DNA of 64,000 bases from Acidobacteriaceae bacterium (GTDB lineage: Bacteria > Acidobacteriota > Terriglobia > Terriglobales > Acidobacteriaceae). The stretch lies in contig PMSQ01000199.1 of the NCBI GenBank assembly GCA_003168355.1, positions 32,128-96,127 on the forward strand. Reading direction: 5' to 3'. The notes under the pieces were generated by a model. It ran no database searches. It worked only from the letters and a program-made list of their open reading frames with translations, and was not told the DNA's origin. The position numbers and the translations under genes were made by a program. Below, piece after piece: positions 58,096 through 64,000 of this stretch. Numbering within the stretch: position 1 is the stretch's first letter; the number at the start of each line of letters is the position of its first letter.

Positions 58096-58806
58096 ATGAA
58101 TCGCGAATATCACAAAGGATACAGCCAGGAATTGCACCGGGACATGGATGCGCTGGTTTTCGGGCATGCGGGAACGCCGCTGCTGGTGTTTCCGACTTCC
58201 ATGGGGAAATTTTTCGAGTATGAAGACCGAGGGATGATTGGCGTACTGGCGCCGAAGATCGAGCGCGGCGAACTGCAGATATTTTGCCCAGACGCCGTCG
58301 ATACCGAGAGTTGGTACAACAAGGGCGTGCATCCTAAGGTGCGGGTGCTGCGGCACTTGCAGTACGAGCGCTATATTCTGCATGAAATGGTGCCGTTTAT
58401 CCGGTGGAAGAATCAGACGCCGCGGCTGGCGGTGACCGGGTGCAGCTTCGGAGCTTATCATGCGGTGAATTTTGCGCTGAAGCATCCGGATGTGGTGACA
58501 CACTGCGTCAGCATGAGCGGGGCGTTTGATATCCATCAGTTTCTGGATGGATACTACGACGATGACTGCTACTTCAATTGTCCGCCGGATTATCTGCCAA
58601 ATCAAAATGATGATTGGTTCCTGAGCCGCTACCGGCAGATGAAAATCGTGCTGGGGTCAGCGGATTGGGATATCTGTCTGGACCAGAATGTGAAGCTGTC
58701 AGCGATTCTGAATGGCAAAGCCGTGCCGCACTGGCTGGATATCTTCGGCGACAACTCGAAGCATGACTGGCCGCTGTGGTTGAGGATGGCGGGGAAGTAT
58801 TTTTAG
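58096..58806 (+). CDS. Esterase-like alpha/beta hydrolase
   Basis: A 236-residue cytosolic hydrolase. The nucleophile elbow is GCSFGAY (Ser at about residue 116). An oxyanion-type loop lies in LLVFPTSMGKFFEYED, and a C-terminal His (KHDWPLW) with an Asp before it completes a plausible triad. It resembles esterase-D-like proteins. A longer frame starts at 57904, but ATG 58096 is better since the conserved fold begins at once. It opens the plus-strand run of ligase genes and may cleave or transfer acyl groups there. Confidence 0.8.
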   Translation: MNREYHKGYSQELHRDMDALVFGHAGTPLLVFPTSMGKFFEYEDRGMIGVLAPKIERGELQIFCPDAVDTESWYNKGVHPKVRVLRHLQYERYILHEMVPFIRWKNQTPRLAVTGCSFGAYHAVNFALKHPDVVTHCVSMSGAFDIHQFLDGYYDDDCYFNCPPDYLPNQNDDWFLSRYRQMKIVLGSADWDICLDQNVKLSAILNGKAVPHWLDIFGDNSKHDWPLWLRMAGKYF

Positions 58807-58889
58807 GGAGGGCTTCAGCTTCGGCGACCCGCGAGGGTTGGATGCACGGGGAGAATGCCTTGTTGCGGCAGTTGACAGGGCTGGGAGTG

Positions 58890-58950
58890 CAGGGTCCTTC
58901 GATTGCGTGACTGCTTCGCTTCTCGAAACAGTACTTCTCAGGATGACAAA
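58890..58950. repeat. Dispersed intergenic repeat (CCTTCGA ... AGGATGACA class)
   Basis: Starts GGGTCCTTCGATTGCG and ends CTCAGGATGACAAA, close in plan to 35330-35392. Confidence 0.6.
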
Positions 58951-58970
58951 TTTTATTTGGAGATGAATTT

Positions 58971-59978
58971 GTGAAGAAGATTGGAATTCTGTTTGGAATG
59001 GAAAACACGTTTCCGCCGGCGGTAGTGGAGAAGATTAATGCCATGGGCGTTGATGGGGTGACGGCGGAATTTGTGCAGGTGGGCGGGGTGCGGATGGATG
59101 AGCCCAAGAAATATGACGTGATCATTGACCGGATCTCGCAGGATATTCCGTTCTACCGGGCGTACCTGAAGAATGCGGCACTGCACGGGACGATTGTGGT
59201 GAATAATCCGTTCTGGTGGTCGGCGGATGACAAGTTTTTCAACTATGCGCTAGCGCATAAGCTGAGCGTGGCGATTCCGCCAACTGTGATTTTGCCCCAC
59301 AACAAGCATCCTGAAGGAACGACCGACAAGTCGATGCGGAACCTGATTTTTCCGCTGAACTGGCAGGAGGTGTTCGATTACGTCGGCTTCCCCGCTTTTC
59401 TGAAGCCTTATTCCGGAGGCGGGTGGAAGCATGTCTACCACGTGCATTCGCCGGAGGAATTTTTCCAGCATTACAACCAGACGGGCGATTTGTGCATGAC
59501 GCTGCAACATGGCGTGGTGTTTGAGGAGTATTACAGGTGCTATGTGGTGGGGCAGGAAAAAGTGCACATTATGAAGTACGACCCCAGGCTGCCGCATCAT
59601 GAACGGTACGTGAAGGGAAATCCTCCTCCGTCGTCGGCGGCGCTGAAGGAGCGCATCGAGAAGGATGCGCTGACATTGTGCCGGGTGTTGGGGTATGACT
59701 TGAATACGGTAGAGTTTGCGGTGGAGGGCGGCGTGCCGTATGCGATTGATTTTCTGAATCCGGCGCCGGATGCGGAGATTACGTCAGTTGGGCAGGAGAA
59801 TTTTGATTGGATAGTGAAGGCGGTTGCGGAGATGGCGGTGAAGATGGCGGGAAGCGGGGAGAATCCGGCGCGGGAGTTGCGCTGGGCGGAGTTTTTGAAC
59901 GGTATGCCGGTGAAGAAAACTCGCAAGGCGGAGCCGGGGTGGGTTGCGGAGCGGAAACGGGGGAAGGCGGCGAAGTAG
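58971..59978 (+). CDS. ATP-grasp-type ligase
   Basis: A 335-residue protein with ATP-grasp features: the central domain VGFPAFLKPYSGGGWKHVY (nucleotide-contacting lysine, glycine loop) at about residues 140-158, EEYYRCYVVGQEKVHIMKYDP, and the C-terminal metal site GVPYAIDFLNPAPDAEI. ATP-grasp enzymes form amide bonds through acyl phosphates. GTG 58971 has a GGAG site ahead. The product cannot be deduced; a GCS2-type ligase and an aminopeptidase nearby suggest peptide-like chemistry. Confidence 0.88.
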   Translation: MKKIGILFGMENTFPPAVVEKINAMGVDGVTAEFVQVGGVRMDEPKKYDVIIDRISQDIPFYRAYLKNAALHGTIVVNNPFWWSADDKFFNYALAHKLSVAIPPTVILPHNKHPEGTTDKSMRNLIFPLNWQEVFDYVGFPAFLKPYSGGGWKHVYHVHSPEEFFQHYNQTGDLCMTLQHGVVFEEYYRCYVVGQEKVHIMKYDPRLPHHERYVKGNPPPSSAALKERIEKDALTLCRVLGYDLNTVEFAVEGGVPYAIDFLNPAPDAEITSVGQENFDWIVKAVAEMAVKMAGSGENPARELRWAEFLNGMPVKKTRKAEPGWVAERKRGKAAK

Positions 59979-59980
59979 AG

Positions 59981-60331
59981 GTGGACGAGCTAAAGAAAAA
60001 GCGCTTTCTTTGGGGCATATTACTTGTGTGCGCACCGTGGATCCCTACCCTGATTGGCCTCGGCAGGGCATTCAGGGGTATTTCGGAACAAAAGGCGACC
60101 GGGCTCGGCGCAATCGGAGCCGGTCTCACTGAGTCATTCCTCTTGTGTGGTATCGGCGCGATTCTCGTCGGCCAAGTAACGGCCATCGTCTTACTGTTCC
60201 GGGCATTTTCGTCTGGACATTGGCTCCGCAGCTCGTTTTCTGTCCTGTCTATTGGCTTGAGTGCATTGATGTTCCTTCTTGTTTGTCTTTTCTTGTGGTT
60301 TTCCTGGTTCCAGGCGCACCGCAGCTTCTGA
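59981..60331 (+). CDS. Small membrane protein in the ligase cluster
   Basis: A 116-residue protein with three hydrophobic stretches (FLWGILLVCAPWIPTLIGLG, FLLCGIGAILVGQVTAIVLLF and SIGLSALMFLLVCLFLWFSWF). The GTG start at 59981 lies 2 bases after the ATP-grasp stop, indicating coupling; the frame is open upstream but that part is antisense to nothing useful. No family recognised. It could anchor or export the cluster's product, which is inference from position. Confidence 0.65.
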   Translation: MDELKKKRFLWGILLVCAPWIPTLIGLGRAFRGISEQKATGLGAIGAGLTESFLLCGIGAILVGQVTAIVLLFRAFSSGHWLRSSFSVLSIGLSALMFLLVCLFLWFSWFQAHRSF

Positions 60332-60436
60332 GCAGGGTCCTTGGAGTGGTTGTTATACTGTCATAGCCTCAATTTGCCCACCTGTTACAAGAACACAAGG
60401 GTGGACATTTGGATTTGCTCCTGCGCGGCGCACGCG

Positions 60437-61576
60437 ATGAAACCTACTTTCAGCATCGGGATCGAAGAGGAATATCAGACGGTGGATCCGGAGACGCGGG
60501 ATCTGCGGTCGCATATTCAGGCGGAGATCCTCGAAAAGGGCAGGCTGATCCTGCAGGAACGGGTGAAGGCGGAGATGCACCAGTCCGTGGTGGAGGTGGG
60601 GACCGGTGTTTGCAAGAACATGAAGGAAGCCAAGGCGGAAGTGAAGATGCTGCGGCGCGATATTATCAGGCTGGCCAAGGAAAACGGGCTGAGGCTGGCT
60701 TCGGTGGCGACGCATCCGTTTGCGGACTGGCGGGTGCAGGAGATTCATCCGGACCCACGCTACAAAAACATTGTAGAGGACATGCAGTTGGTGGCGCGGG
60801 CGAATCTGATTTTTGGGCTGCACGTGCATATTGGGATTGAAGATCGCGAGACCGCGATCCACATGATGAATCACGCGCGTTATTTTCTGCCGCATCTGCT
60901 GGCGCTGTCGACGAATTCGCCCTTCTGGCTGGGGATGAATACAGGATTGAAATCGTACCGGTGCAAGGTGTTCGACAAGTTTCCGCGCACCAACATCCCC
61001 GATTATTTTCCCAGCTGGGGCGAGTACGAAAACTTCATCAAACTGCTGATCAAGACGAACTGTATCGACAATGCGAAGAAGATCTGGTGGGATATCCGTC
61101 CGCATCCGTTCTTTAATACGATTGAGTTCCGGGTGTGCGATATTCCCATGCGCGCCGATGAAACGATCGCGCTGGCGGCGCTGATTCAGGCAACTGTGGC
61201 GAAGTTGTACAAGCTGCATACGGCGAATCAGGGATTTCGCTTGTACCGGCGTGCGCTTCTCATGGAGAACAAGTGGCGTGCGGCACGTTATGGAATGGAC
61301 GGGAAGCTGATCGATTTCGGCAAGCAGACGGAAGTGCCGGCGCGGGATTTGATCCTCGAGTATTTGGAATTTGTGGATGATGTGGTGGACGAACTGGACT
61401 CGCGCGAGGAATTGAACTACATCCACACCATGCTGAAAACGGGCAGCGGCGCGGACCGGCAGTTGCGGGTGTATCAGGAAACTGGCGATTTGAAGAAAGT
61501 AGTCGATTACATCATTGAGGAGACGGAAACCGGCCTAGAGGAAAACGAGCCGGCGGCCGTAAGAAAAGTGGGATGA
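60437..61576 (+). CDS. GCS2/YbdK-type carboxylate-amine ligase
   Basis: A 379-residue member of the glutamate-cysteine ligase type 2 family, which joins a carboxylate and an amine using ATP. Signature parts are the N-terminal FSIGIEEEYQTVD (Mg/substrate acids), FGLHVHIGIEDRETAI around residue 125, NSPFWLGMNTGLKSYR, and IEFRVCDIP. ATG 60437 is chosen because the fold starts there. Its TGA overlaps the start of the next gene (ATGA). Real substrates of this group are largely unknown; true glutathione synthesis is not implied. Confidence 0.9.
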   Translation: MKPTFSIGIEEEYQTVDPETRDLRSHIQAEILEKGRLILQERVKAEMHQSVVEVGTGVCKNMKEAKAEVKMLRRDIIRLAKENGLRLASVATHPFADWRVQEIHPDPRYKNIVEDMQLVARANLIFGLHVHIGIEDRETAIHMMNHARYFLPHLLALSTNSPFWLGMNTGLKSYRCKVFDKFPRTNIPDYFPSWGEYENFIKLLIKTNCIDNAKKIWWDIRPHPFFNTIEFRVCDIPMRADETIALAALIQATVAKLYKLHTANQGFRLYRRALLMENKWRAARYGMDGKLIDFGKQTEVPARDLILEYLEFVDDVVDELDSREELNYIHTMLKTGSGADRQLRVYQETGDLKKVVDYIIEETETGLEENEPAAVRKVG

Positions 61577-62697
61577 CTATTCCTGCAGACGAAGTCAAGA
61601 CTCACACCCCTTCGGCAGGCTCAGGGCAGGCTCTTCGCAAAGAACGCGAAGGATCGGGCATCCAACAACGAGGGTGGGGCACCCGCGATCAGATTTCTTT
61701 TGATCCTGAATACACTCCTGGGGCGCGCAATGCTGTGAGGGTTTGCCTGCGCGTGCAGCCTGAGGAGAAGGTTTGCGTCATCACGGATGAGGCAACGCTG
61801 GAGATCGCGGCGGCGATTGTGAGCCAACTCGAGGAGTTGGGCGCACCCTATCGCACCTGGGTGCTGGAAGATCTGGCGGAGCGTCCGCTGAAAGATTTGC
61901 CTCCGCAGATTCTGGAAGATCTGGAGACGAGCCAGGTTTCAATCTTTGCCGTGTGGGCGCAGAGGAACGAACTGCGCACGCGTATGCAGATGACGGACGT
62001 GGTGAACCGGCGGAAGATCCGGCACGCACACATGGTGAACATCAACCGGCAGATCATGCTGGAGGGCATGCGGGCGGACTTTCAGAAGGTGGACCGGCTG
62101 AGCGCGAAAGTTGTTGCGATGGTGCGCAAGGCGCGGCAGGTGCGGGCGAAGACGGCGGCGGGAACGGACCTGACGGCGGAGCTGAATCCGAATTATCGCT
62201 GGCTGAAGACCAGCGGAATTATTTCTCCGGAAAAATGGGGAAATCTGCCGGGAGGAGAAATTTTTACAACGCCCGGCGAGGTCAACGGGACGTTCGTAAT
62301 CGACGGCGTGGTGGGGGATTATTTGTGCACGAAGTTTGGAAGCCTGCAAGAAATGCCGCTTACGATTCACATGAAAAATAACCGGTTGACCGAAGCACAC
62401 TCGGAGAATCGCGAACTGGAAGATGACTTCTGGAAGTACACGCACACGGATGAGAATAGCGACCGTGTCGGCGAGTTTGCCATTGGAACGAACATCGATT
62501 TGAAAGATGTAATTGGGCAGATTCTGCAGGATGAGAAATATCCCGGAGTGCATATTGCGTTTGGGAATCCTTATGGTGCGCACACGGGGGCGGAGTGGGA
62601 TTCGTCGACCCATATCGATGTGGTGGGGCGGAAATTTCATATTTGGGTTGACGACGAGCAGATTATGCGAGATGGAAAGTTCTTGGTGGAGGCGTAA
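61573..62697 (+). CDS. M29-like aminopeptidase with repeat-encoded N-terminus
   Basis: A 374-residue metallo-aminopeptidase of the M29 type. The core contains VNGTFVIDGVVGDY, EAHSENRELEDDF and the metal-ligand region GEFAIGTNIDLK, IAFGNPYGAHTGAEWDSSTHIDVV. The first about 40 residues (TPSAGSGQALRKER, then WGTRDQ) come from a dispersed repeat (GGCAGGCTCAGGGCAGGCTC, GCAAAGAACGCGAAGG, GGGGCACCC) and do not look conserved; a natural fold start is near residue 42. It overlaps the ligase stop, so both are co-translated. Confidence 0.86.
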   Translation: MTIPADEVKTHTPSAGSGQALRKEREGSGIQQRGWGTRDQISFDPEYTPGARNAVRVCLRVQPEEKVCVITDEATLEIAAAIVSQLEELGAPYRTWVLEDLAERPLKDLPPQILEDLETSQVSIFAVWAQRNELRTRMQMTDVVNRRKIRHAHMVNINRQIMLEGMRADFQKVDRLSAKVVAMVRKARQVRAKTAAGTDLTAELNPNYRWLKTSGIISPEKWGNLPGGEIFTTPGEVNGTFVIDGVVGDYLCTKFGSLQEMPLTIHMKNNRLTEAHSENRELEDDFWKYTHTDENSDRVGEFAIGTNIDLKDVIGQILQDEKYPGVHIAFGNPYGAHTGAEWDSSTHIDVVGRKFHIWVDDEQIMRDGKFLVEA

Positions 62698-62705
62698 GGC
62701 ACCCA

Positions 62706-63068
62706 GTGAAAGTGATTGTCGAAGAGTCCCGAGTCGCGGTTCTGAAAAAGGCGTACCAGGCGTTTAACGCTCGTGACATCGACGCCGCTTTGGCGACCAT
62801 GCAACCGGACGTGGAGTGGCCGAATGGCATGGAGGGTGGTACGGTTCATGGCCGTGCTGCCATCCGGGAATACTGGACGCGGCAGTGGGGCATCGTCGAT
62901 CCGCATGTCGAGCCCGTGAGTTTCGATCTGGATGAAGCGGGCCGAGTTATAGTCGCGGTTCACCAGGTAGTCCTTGATCGCTCTGGGAAAACGCTGCTGG
63001 ACCGGATGGTCGAGCACGTGTATTCGATAGAAGGCGGCCTCATTCGCAATATGGAAATCCGCGAGTGA
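62706..63068 (+). CDS. SnoaL-like (NTF2-fold) protein
   Basis: A 120-residue protein with the cone-shaped NTF2-like pattern: helix AVLKKAYQAFNARDIDAALA, then PDVEWPNGMEGGTVHGRAAIREYWTRQW and several strands ending in GGLIRNMEIRE. SnoaL-like proteins act as small isomerases, hydrolases or binding proteins. GTG 62706 starts 8 bases after the aminopeptidase stop and probably shares its mRNA. Specific role unknown. Confidence 0.83.
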   Translation: MKVIVEESRVAVLKKAYQAFNARDIDAALATMQPDVEWPNGMEGGTVHGRAAIREYWTRQWGIVDPHVEPVSFDLDEAGRVIVAVHQVVLDRSGKTLLDRMVEHVYSIEGGLIRNMEIRE

Positions 63069-63093
63069 GATTCCAGCATTGCCCGCTCCGGCT

Positions 63094-64000
63094 ATGATTC
63101 CTTTCCTCCGAAAGCAGTTCAACGCCAGCTTTACTCCCGAAAAATATCAGGAATTCTTGCGGCGGATTGACCACGCTTGCGGAACGCATGTGTCCTTCCG
63201 GCTGTCGGAGACTCCTTGTTTCTTTCCGAAGTCTCTACTCGGTCGAATGGCAGAGGACGGGAAAGAGTTGATCCGGCAACTGGTGGATAGTCCGGAGTAT
63301 CGGGCACGGTCAGATGAGTCGATTCCGGCGGAATATCGGGTGGCGAATGAGCCGGCGCATCCGATGTTTGTGCAGGTTGATTTTGGGCTGGTCCGCGATG
63401 CGGGCGGCGAGTTGCAGCCGAAGTTGGTCGAGTTGCAGGCCTTCCCTTCTCTTTATGCGTATCAGCTCACGATGGCGCAAAGCTACATTGACGTGTACGG
63501 GTTGGGAGGGCGGGCTTCGGGCTCCGGTTTTCGGGCTTCGACATCCGGCCAGGCGGAGTTGCAGTTCTTTTTGAGTGGACTGGATCAGAAGTCTTATCGT
63601 GAACTTTTGCGGCGGGCAATTGTGGGCACGCATGATCCAGAGAACGTGATCCTGATGGAGATTCATCCGCAAGAGCAGAAAACTCTGCCGGACTTTCTGC
63701 TGACGGAGAAGATGTTGGGAGTGCGGACCGTCGATATTGAGGCGATCAAGAAGCAAGGATCACAGCTTTACTACGAACGGAAGGGCGGCCGGGTGCCGAT
63801 CCGGCGGATCTACAACCGGGCGATTGTGGATGAGTTGCAGCGCAAGCATGTGAAGCTTGGGTTTGATTTCCGCGACGATCTCGACGTGGAGTGGGCGGGA
63901 CATCCCAATTGGTATTTCCGCATCAGCAAGTTTTCGATTCCGTATCTGCAGCACGAGTCGGTGCCGAAGACGTGGTTTCTGAACCAACTGAAAAAGATTC
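63094..64000 (+). CDS. Uncharacterised conserved-looking protein, 3' end outside window
   Basis: Open frame of 302 codons from ATG 63094 to the window edge. Visible motifs include VQVDFGLVRDAGGELQPKLVELQAFPSL, a short low-complexity Gly/Ser/Arg insert (GGRASGSGFRASTSG), VILMEIHPQEQKTLPDFLLTEK and the closing PNWYFRISKFSIPYLQHESVPKTWFLNQL. The Glu-x-Gln region and WYFRISKFS hint at a nucleotide-binding ligase-like fold, but no family is certain. It may be a further ligase of the cluster. No ribosome site stands out. Confidence 0.72.
   Translation, partial: MIPFLRKQFNASFTPEKYQEFLRRIDHACGTHVSFRLSETPCFFPKSLLGRMAEDGKELIRQLVDSPEYRARSDESIPAEYRVANEPAHPMFVQVDFGLVRDAGGELQPKLVELQAFPSLYAYQLTMAQSYIDVYGLGGRASGSGFRASTSGQAELQFFLSGLDQKSYRELLRRAIVGTHDPENVILMEIHPQEQKTLPDFLLTEKMLGVRTVDIEAIKKQGSQLYYERKGGRVPIRRIYNRAIVDELQRKHVKLGFDFRDDLDVEWAGHPNWYFRISKFSIPYLQHESVPKTWFLNQLKKI

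Follow-up and report, generated by a model that had tools for sequence, protein, structure and literature searches.

A five-gene amidoligase cluster shared across bacterial phyla, with a probable small peptide-like product

The end of a 64,000-nucleotide stretch of an Acidobacteriaceae contig (the window) carries a run of ligase and hydrolase genes and raises the question of which of them belong together and what they might make. The initial annotation had read the run as a possible amidoligase cluster for a peptide-like product.

Gene content and conservation of the locus

Six complete ORFs and one ORF crossing the window end occupy 58096-64326, all on the plus strand as had been stated (Table 1); the cut-off gene was followed on the contig to its end at window-equivalent position 64326. 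The close packing ascribed to the genes was found in part. The GCS2 and M29 genes share a 4-bp ATGA overlap, and gaps of 2, 8 and 25 bp separate the ATP-grasp gene from the membrane protein gene, the M29 gene from the SnoaL-like gene and the latter from the last ligase gene, respectively, but 164 bp lie between the esterase and ATP-grasp genes and 105 bp between the membrane protein and GCS2 genes. Scanning the locus for promoters and terminators gave a signal at chance level.

Table 1 Genes of the locus, with window coordinates and the basis of each assignment
Feature	Position	Strand	Basis or remark
alpha/beta-Hydrolase, esterase D-like (core gene 1)	58096..58806	+	PF00756; Ser117/His223 invariant
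ATP-grasp ligase, Ddl/RimK/LysX type (core gene 2), GTG start	58971..59978	+	AlphaFold/Foldseek; Pfam without match
Small membrane protein, local insertion (non-core)	59981..60331	+	Homologue in three same-genus loci only
GCS2/YbdK-type carboxylate-amine ligase (core gene 3)	60437..61576	+	PF04107, PRK13515
M29-type metallopeptidase-like protein (core gene 4, swappable slot)	61573..62697	+	PF02073; AmpS 1zjc profile match
SnoaL-like protein, local insertion (non-core)	62706..63068	+	PF12680; place not shared by 40 relatives
GSS/YgiC-type ATP-grasp ligase (core gene 5)	63094..64000, on the contig to 64326 (L002:7222-8454)	+	Fold match

Comparison with 40 loci of the same family gave a core order of esterase, ATP-grasp ligase, GCS2 ligase, hydrolase and GSS-like ligase, which, with M29 in the hydrolase slot, is intact in about half of these loci and elsewhere is broken by insertions or losses. 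The membrane protein and the SnoaL-like protein, which the initial annotation had counted as cluster members, did not hold that place: the former recurs in three of the 40 related loci, all of one genus, and the latter in one, at another position and in another orientation. Because they are rare or displaced among the relatives, both are regarded as passengers. The TPR and ClC genes upstream, as well as a kinase and later genes downstream, were also considered and set aside, their conservation being confined to the neighbourhood of the source genus.

Within the phylum, the GSS-like ligase was found in 40 and the ATP-grasp ligase in 88 of 297 genomes. The distribution of the former is nested in that of the latter: where the GSS-like match is strong (37 genomes), 36 also encode the ATP-grasp ligase, a frequency to be read against the overall 88 of 297 with kinship ignored. 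G256, the one that lacks it, also carries a truncated GCS2 gene. Since about 50 acidobacterial genomes carry the ATP-grasp ligase without the third ligase, in some cases with GCS2 nearby, the product may differ between lineages. In distant acidobacterial families the cluster was found again, in some with the esterase gene divergent. GSS-like ligases without partners in the stretch examined were observed in several other families of the phylum (L104, L106, L109, L112, L114, L116, L119 and L120), and most of these genomes encode the ATP-grasp ligase elsewhere.

A scan of 84,980 species genomes yielded at least 576 confirmed relatives, the best 80 of which were taken for taxonomy and locus comparison. 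These best 80 of at least 576 belong to Acidobacteriota, Bacteroidota (many Pedobacter isolates, Belliella and Rhodothermales) and Ignavibacteriota, together with single genomes labelled Calditrichota, Planctomycetota, Eremiobacterota, Vulcanimicrobiota, Verrucomicrobiota and Pseudomonadota; the phyla represented by single genomes need care because some of these are metagenome bins. Many of the carriers are soil and environmental bacteria, and those in culture include Pedobacter, Bryocella, Silvibacterium and Belliella. All core genes are on one strand in 49 of the 51 loci from these best 80 of at least 576 relatives that have at least four core genes. In compact loci every core gene overlaps its neighbour or lies no more than about 50 bp away, as in L133, where the spacings of the five genes are 17, 22, -4 and -29 bp. 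Pairwise distances among the three ligases are correlated with one another (Spearman 0.76-0.80, kinship ignored). The proposed amidoligase cluster is therefore conserved, with ligases of different folds and hydrolases linked in several families and phyla; scatter of the genes was looked for in other genomes and not seen, the five core genes remaining together even in distant ones. The initial annotation had also remarked on the lack of a carrier protein or NRPS, and neither was found in the set conserved across phyla.

Among the gene families neighbouring the operon, only the five core families and a glutamine-amidotransferase (GATase) alternative, described below, recur widely across phyla. 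Searching plasmids for the cluster gave no matches, and comparison of the operon with the PADLOC models of anti-phage defence gave none either. Several more local associations were observed. Behind the operon in 14 Pedobacter-type loci (L131, L134, L135 and other Sphingobacteriaceae) lie three genes, 4.4-6.1 kb downstream from where the ATP-grasp gene starts, which we take to be cyclic-nucleotide-binding-regulator-like, YceI-like and pirin-like. An aldo/keto-reductase-like gene lies near the operon in eight loci of two phyla (L132, L142, L149, L154, L163, L183, L196 and L200), a recurrence that may be due to chance because the family is common. Family f27 (L213:4928-8267 and L214:4883-8400) has a head-to-tail three-gene unit ending in a divergent ATP-grasp gene (~165 bits) directly after an enterochelin-esterase-like gene, and in one of these two loci, L214, the first gene of the unit is weakly like peptidase S51 (17.5 bits, below the cut-off). 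As an esterase and an ATP-grasp-type gene are paired in f27, this pairing may predate the five-gene set.

Enzymes of the core and the exchange slot

The classes first assigned to the esterase, GCS2, M29 and SnoaL-like proteins were upheld by Pfam matches above the cut-off, and that of the first ATP-grasp protein by its fold. The esterase scored 35.6 bits against a Pfam cut-off of 22, and its Ser117 (GCSFG) and His223 (HDWP) are invariant in an alignment with 16 relatives; its gene is kept upstream of the ATP-grasp gene, in some loci divergent. The SnoaL-like protein matched SnoaL_2 with 48.5 bits (cut-off 27). The GCS2 protein belongs to the GCS2/YbdK family (220.9 bits, cut-off 21) and matched the NCBIfam model PRK13515 ('carboxylate-amine ligase') with 557 bits against a cut-off of 371, whereas none of the 'glutamate-cysteine ligase' equivalogs of NCBIfam was passed (best 377.8 bits, cut-off 409). 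Residues E10/E12, E46/E53, H129 and E230/R232 are invariant in 20 sequences and presumably have an active-site role, by analogy with E. coli GshA.

Core gene 2 gave no match in Pfam. Its AlphaFold model has a pLDDT of 85.8, and all 50 of the 50 Foldseek matches listed are ATP-grasp ligases (Ddl, VanA, LysX/ArgX, RimK and the graspetide ligase MdnC), with E values of ~1e-14 to 5e-12. Although the fold is similar, the protein falls outside the RimK family TIGR00768, scoring 22.9 bits against a cut-off of 143.4. Core gene 5 matched no family in Pfam (E <= 0.1) or NCBIfam (E <= 1), including the glutathionylspermidine synthase sequence family. For its orthologue in L187 (65% identical), an AlphaFold model with a pLDDT of 93.3 was compared with the PDB, and all 19 Foldseek matches with E <= 0.001 fall in one superfamily, which includes human and yeast glutathione synthetase, glutathionylspermidine synthetase, E. 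coli YgiC/YjfC, nematode GSS-like effectors and fungal Cp1B. Judged by this modelled fold, the last gene, which had been suspected of being another ligase, is the third ligase of the set, of the eukaryotic-type glutathione synthetase/YgiC/Cp1B ATP-grasp fold. The idea that the two ATP-grasp ligases are duplicates of each other was rejected, as profile comparison shows no relation between them (probability 0.11%). An in-frame insert of ~15 residues in core gene 5 (window 63508-63555, GGRASGSGFRASTSGQA region) is missing in nearly all relatives.

The M29-like protein belongs to the M29 peptidases (61 bits, cut-off 27). Its candidate metal ligands E229, E301, H327, Y334, H347 and D349 are invariant among relatives, four of them being aligned to AmpS and H347/D349 assigned by motif only. 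A dispersed 28-bp repeat, CTTCGGCAGGCTCAGGGCAGGCTCTTCG, was observed at window 61610-61637 inside the 5' end of this gene; the genome holds nine copies (<=3 mismatches) against none for a reversed control, and the copy in the gene encodes extra N-terminal residues that are missing from most relatives.

Between the GCS2 and GSS-like ligases, Pedobacter and several further lineages have, in place of the M29 protein, one of the class-I glutamine-amidotransferase fold, in which a Cys-His-Glu set (C107, H210 and E212) is invariant. Among 49 scan loci from the best 80 of at least 576 relatives, slot 4 holds M29 in 24 and GATase in 19, is empty in six and holds both in none. On a tree of the three concatenated ligases, the M29/GATase state requires two changes, or six with the empty state counted. 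In L110, GATase lies upstream of the esterase and slot 4 is empty. The use of two unrelated folds at one position suggests that they share one task. Because M29 and GATase alternate in the slot and never occur together, an amide-cleaving step is supported, and the shared task would be amide hydrolysis, which is common to M29 aminopeptidases and several GATase-fold enzymes. Plant gamma-glutamyl peptidases, which have the GATase fold, remove gamma-Glu from glutathione conjugates. GATase-fold proteins may also supply ammonia rather than cleave amides, and the M29-like profile weakly matches NicX; since the M29 fold includes this dioxygenase, the protein in slot 4 may be something other than a peptidase.

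Proposed pathway and alternative explanations

Three amide-forming ligase types (GCS2/YbdK, Ddl/RimK-type ATP-grasp and glutathione-synthetase-type ATP-grasp) are thus found in a fixed-order set with an esterase and the M29/GATase slot, and the catalytic signatures of the core enzymes are retained across relatives. We consider it probable, though far from certain, that the five enzymes form a dedicated pathway, independent of NRPS, for a small and probably intracellular metabolite; its peptide-like character we infer from the enzyme classes. In such a pathway the GCS2 ligase would join an amino acid, perhaps Glu via its gamma-carboxylate, to an amine to form an amide, and the two ATP-grasp enzymes would attach two more units via acyl phosphates, with the GSS-type enzyme placing an amino acid or a polyamine-like amine at the carboxyl end as a cap. 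The hydrolase in slot 4 may take an amide-linked residue (a gamma-glutamyl or N-terminal block) off an intermediate, or recycle the product, and the esterase may free an ester- or thioester-linked form. As no transporter is conserved, the product is probably kept inside the cell. Successive ligases alongside an esterase and a slot for amide cleavage, with no conserved transporter or carrier, most likely reflect the stepwise assembly of a small molecule. That this molecule is a previously undescribed glutathione-like low-molecular-weight cofactor or protectant, made by GCS2 and two ATP-grasp ligases with interchangeable trimming hydrolases and extending beyond many Acidobacteriota and Bacteroidota to other phyla, is put forward tentatively, as a doubtful proposal.

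The main alternative, which we judge unlikely, is protein modification, whereby one or both ATP-grasp enzymes and GCS2 would attach amino acids to a macromolecule such as a protein, comparable to RimK acting on RpsF, and M29 or GATase would remove them. Such reversible tagging has the logic of a ligase combined with a hydrolase, and the fold of core gene 2 resembles those of RimK and LysX/ArgX, which act on proteins; however, this protein misses the RimK cut-off (see above), no conserved carrier or tag protein adjoins the operon, and three consecutive ligases better suit stepwise small-molecule assembly.

A glutathione-like thiol pathway appears decidedly unlikely. Here GCS2 would form gamma-glutamyl-cysteine or an analogue, the ATP-grasp or GSS-type enzyme would add a residue, slot 4 would strip gamma-Glu, and the esterase would be S-formylglutathione hydrolase-like. 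The GCS2 and GSS-type folds are the matching enzyme classes, the source genome has no PF04262 GshA and its sole GCS2 gene sits in the operon, a single marginal PF02955 match (23.6 bits) is present in that genome, and an S-formylglutathione hydrolase structure is among the esterases to which the profile of the esterase has a weak match. Nevertheless, the GCS2 protein passes PRK13515 while failing all glutamate-cysteine ligase equivalogs, no thiol-using enzyme is conserved beside the operon, and nothing indicates cysteine.

ATP-grasp enzymes that cross-link a short precursor peptide are the hallmark of graspetide-type RiPP clusters, and MdnC is among the fold matches of core gene 2. A cluster of this type is very improbable here, given that clustering of ORFs of >=80 aa revealed no conserved small ORF recurring beside the operon and that a GCS2-type ligase is foreign to graspetide clusters; compact loci, with their overlaps or spacings of <=~50 bp, leave no place for a precursor peptide between the core genes. 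Finally, the membrane protein and SnoaL-like genes show that insertions occur at this locus, but a chance gathering of unrelated genes in the source contig is scarcely credible and is excluded for the five core genes because their order and strand are conserved in several families and phyla.

Relation to known systems and significance

The gene cluster is of a known kind. Amidoligase neighbourhoods were reportedly described by Iyer et al. in 2009 as ATP-grasp and COOH-NH2/GCS2 ligases encoded with peptidases and predicted to perform successive ligations. The present locus shares with them the linkage of ATP-grasp and GCS2-type ligases with hydrolases, and differs in its fixed five-gene unit, its third, GSS-type ligase and its M29/GATase exchange slot. 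That survey (Mol Biosyst 5:1636) is cited in PMC4431377. No description of the five-gene combination was found in the open-access full-text literature; an earlier listing in the 2009 survey is possible.

Biosynthesis of glutathione and glutathionylspermidine (GSS, GspS and YgiC/YjfC) resembles the cluster in the fold of core gene 5, and the first ligase of glutathione synthesis and GCS2 are in one fold family, whereas the cluster has no sequence-level membership in these families and has an extra Ddl/RimK-type ATP-grasp ligase, a hydrolase and an esterase. E. coli YbdK (1r8g) is a homologue of the GCS2 protein (profile match of 226 bits over 330 residues), but the latter fits best with PRK13515 and stays under the cut-off of the YbdK model PRK13516. 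In the PuuA/PuuD gamma-glutamyl putrescine pathway and with BtrJ/BtrG of butirosin biosynthesis, a ligase adds a glutamyl block that a hydrolase of a different fold later removes. Other ligase families are used in those pathways, while three ligases are present here and a blocking step would be expected only by inference. In the E-64 pathway, fungal Cp1B makes a pseudodipeptide by coupling an epoxide diacid with amino acids (PMC12568646). It has the ATP-grasp fold of core gene 5 and is likewise a stand-alone ligase of an NRPS-independent pathway, but it is fungal and is partnered by an amide bond synthetase, and the steps described involve neither a GCS2 nor an M29/GATase partner (PMC12568646).

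The exchange of M29 and GATase offers a concrete, testable clue to the chemistry of the pathway. Neither Pfam nor NCBIfam covers the ligase family of core gene 5, whose fold relatives are useful biocatalysts. Three amide ligases in a small operon that crosses phyla point to an unrecognised and widespread metabolite.
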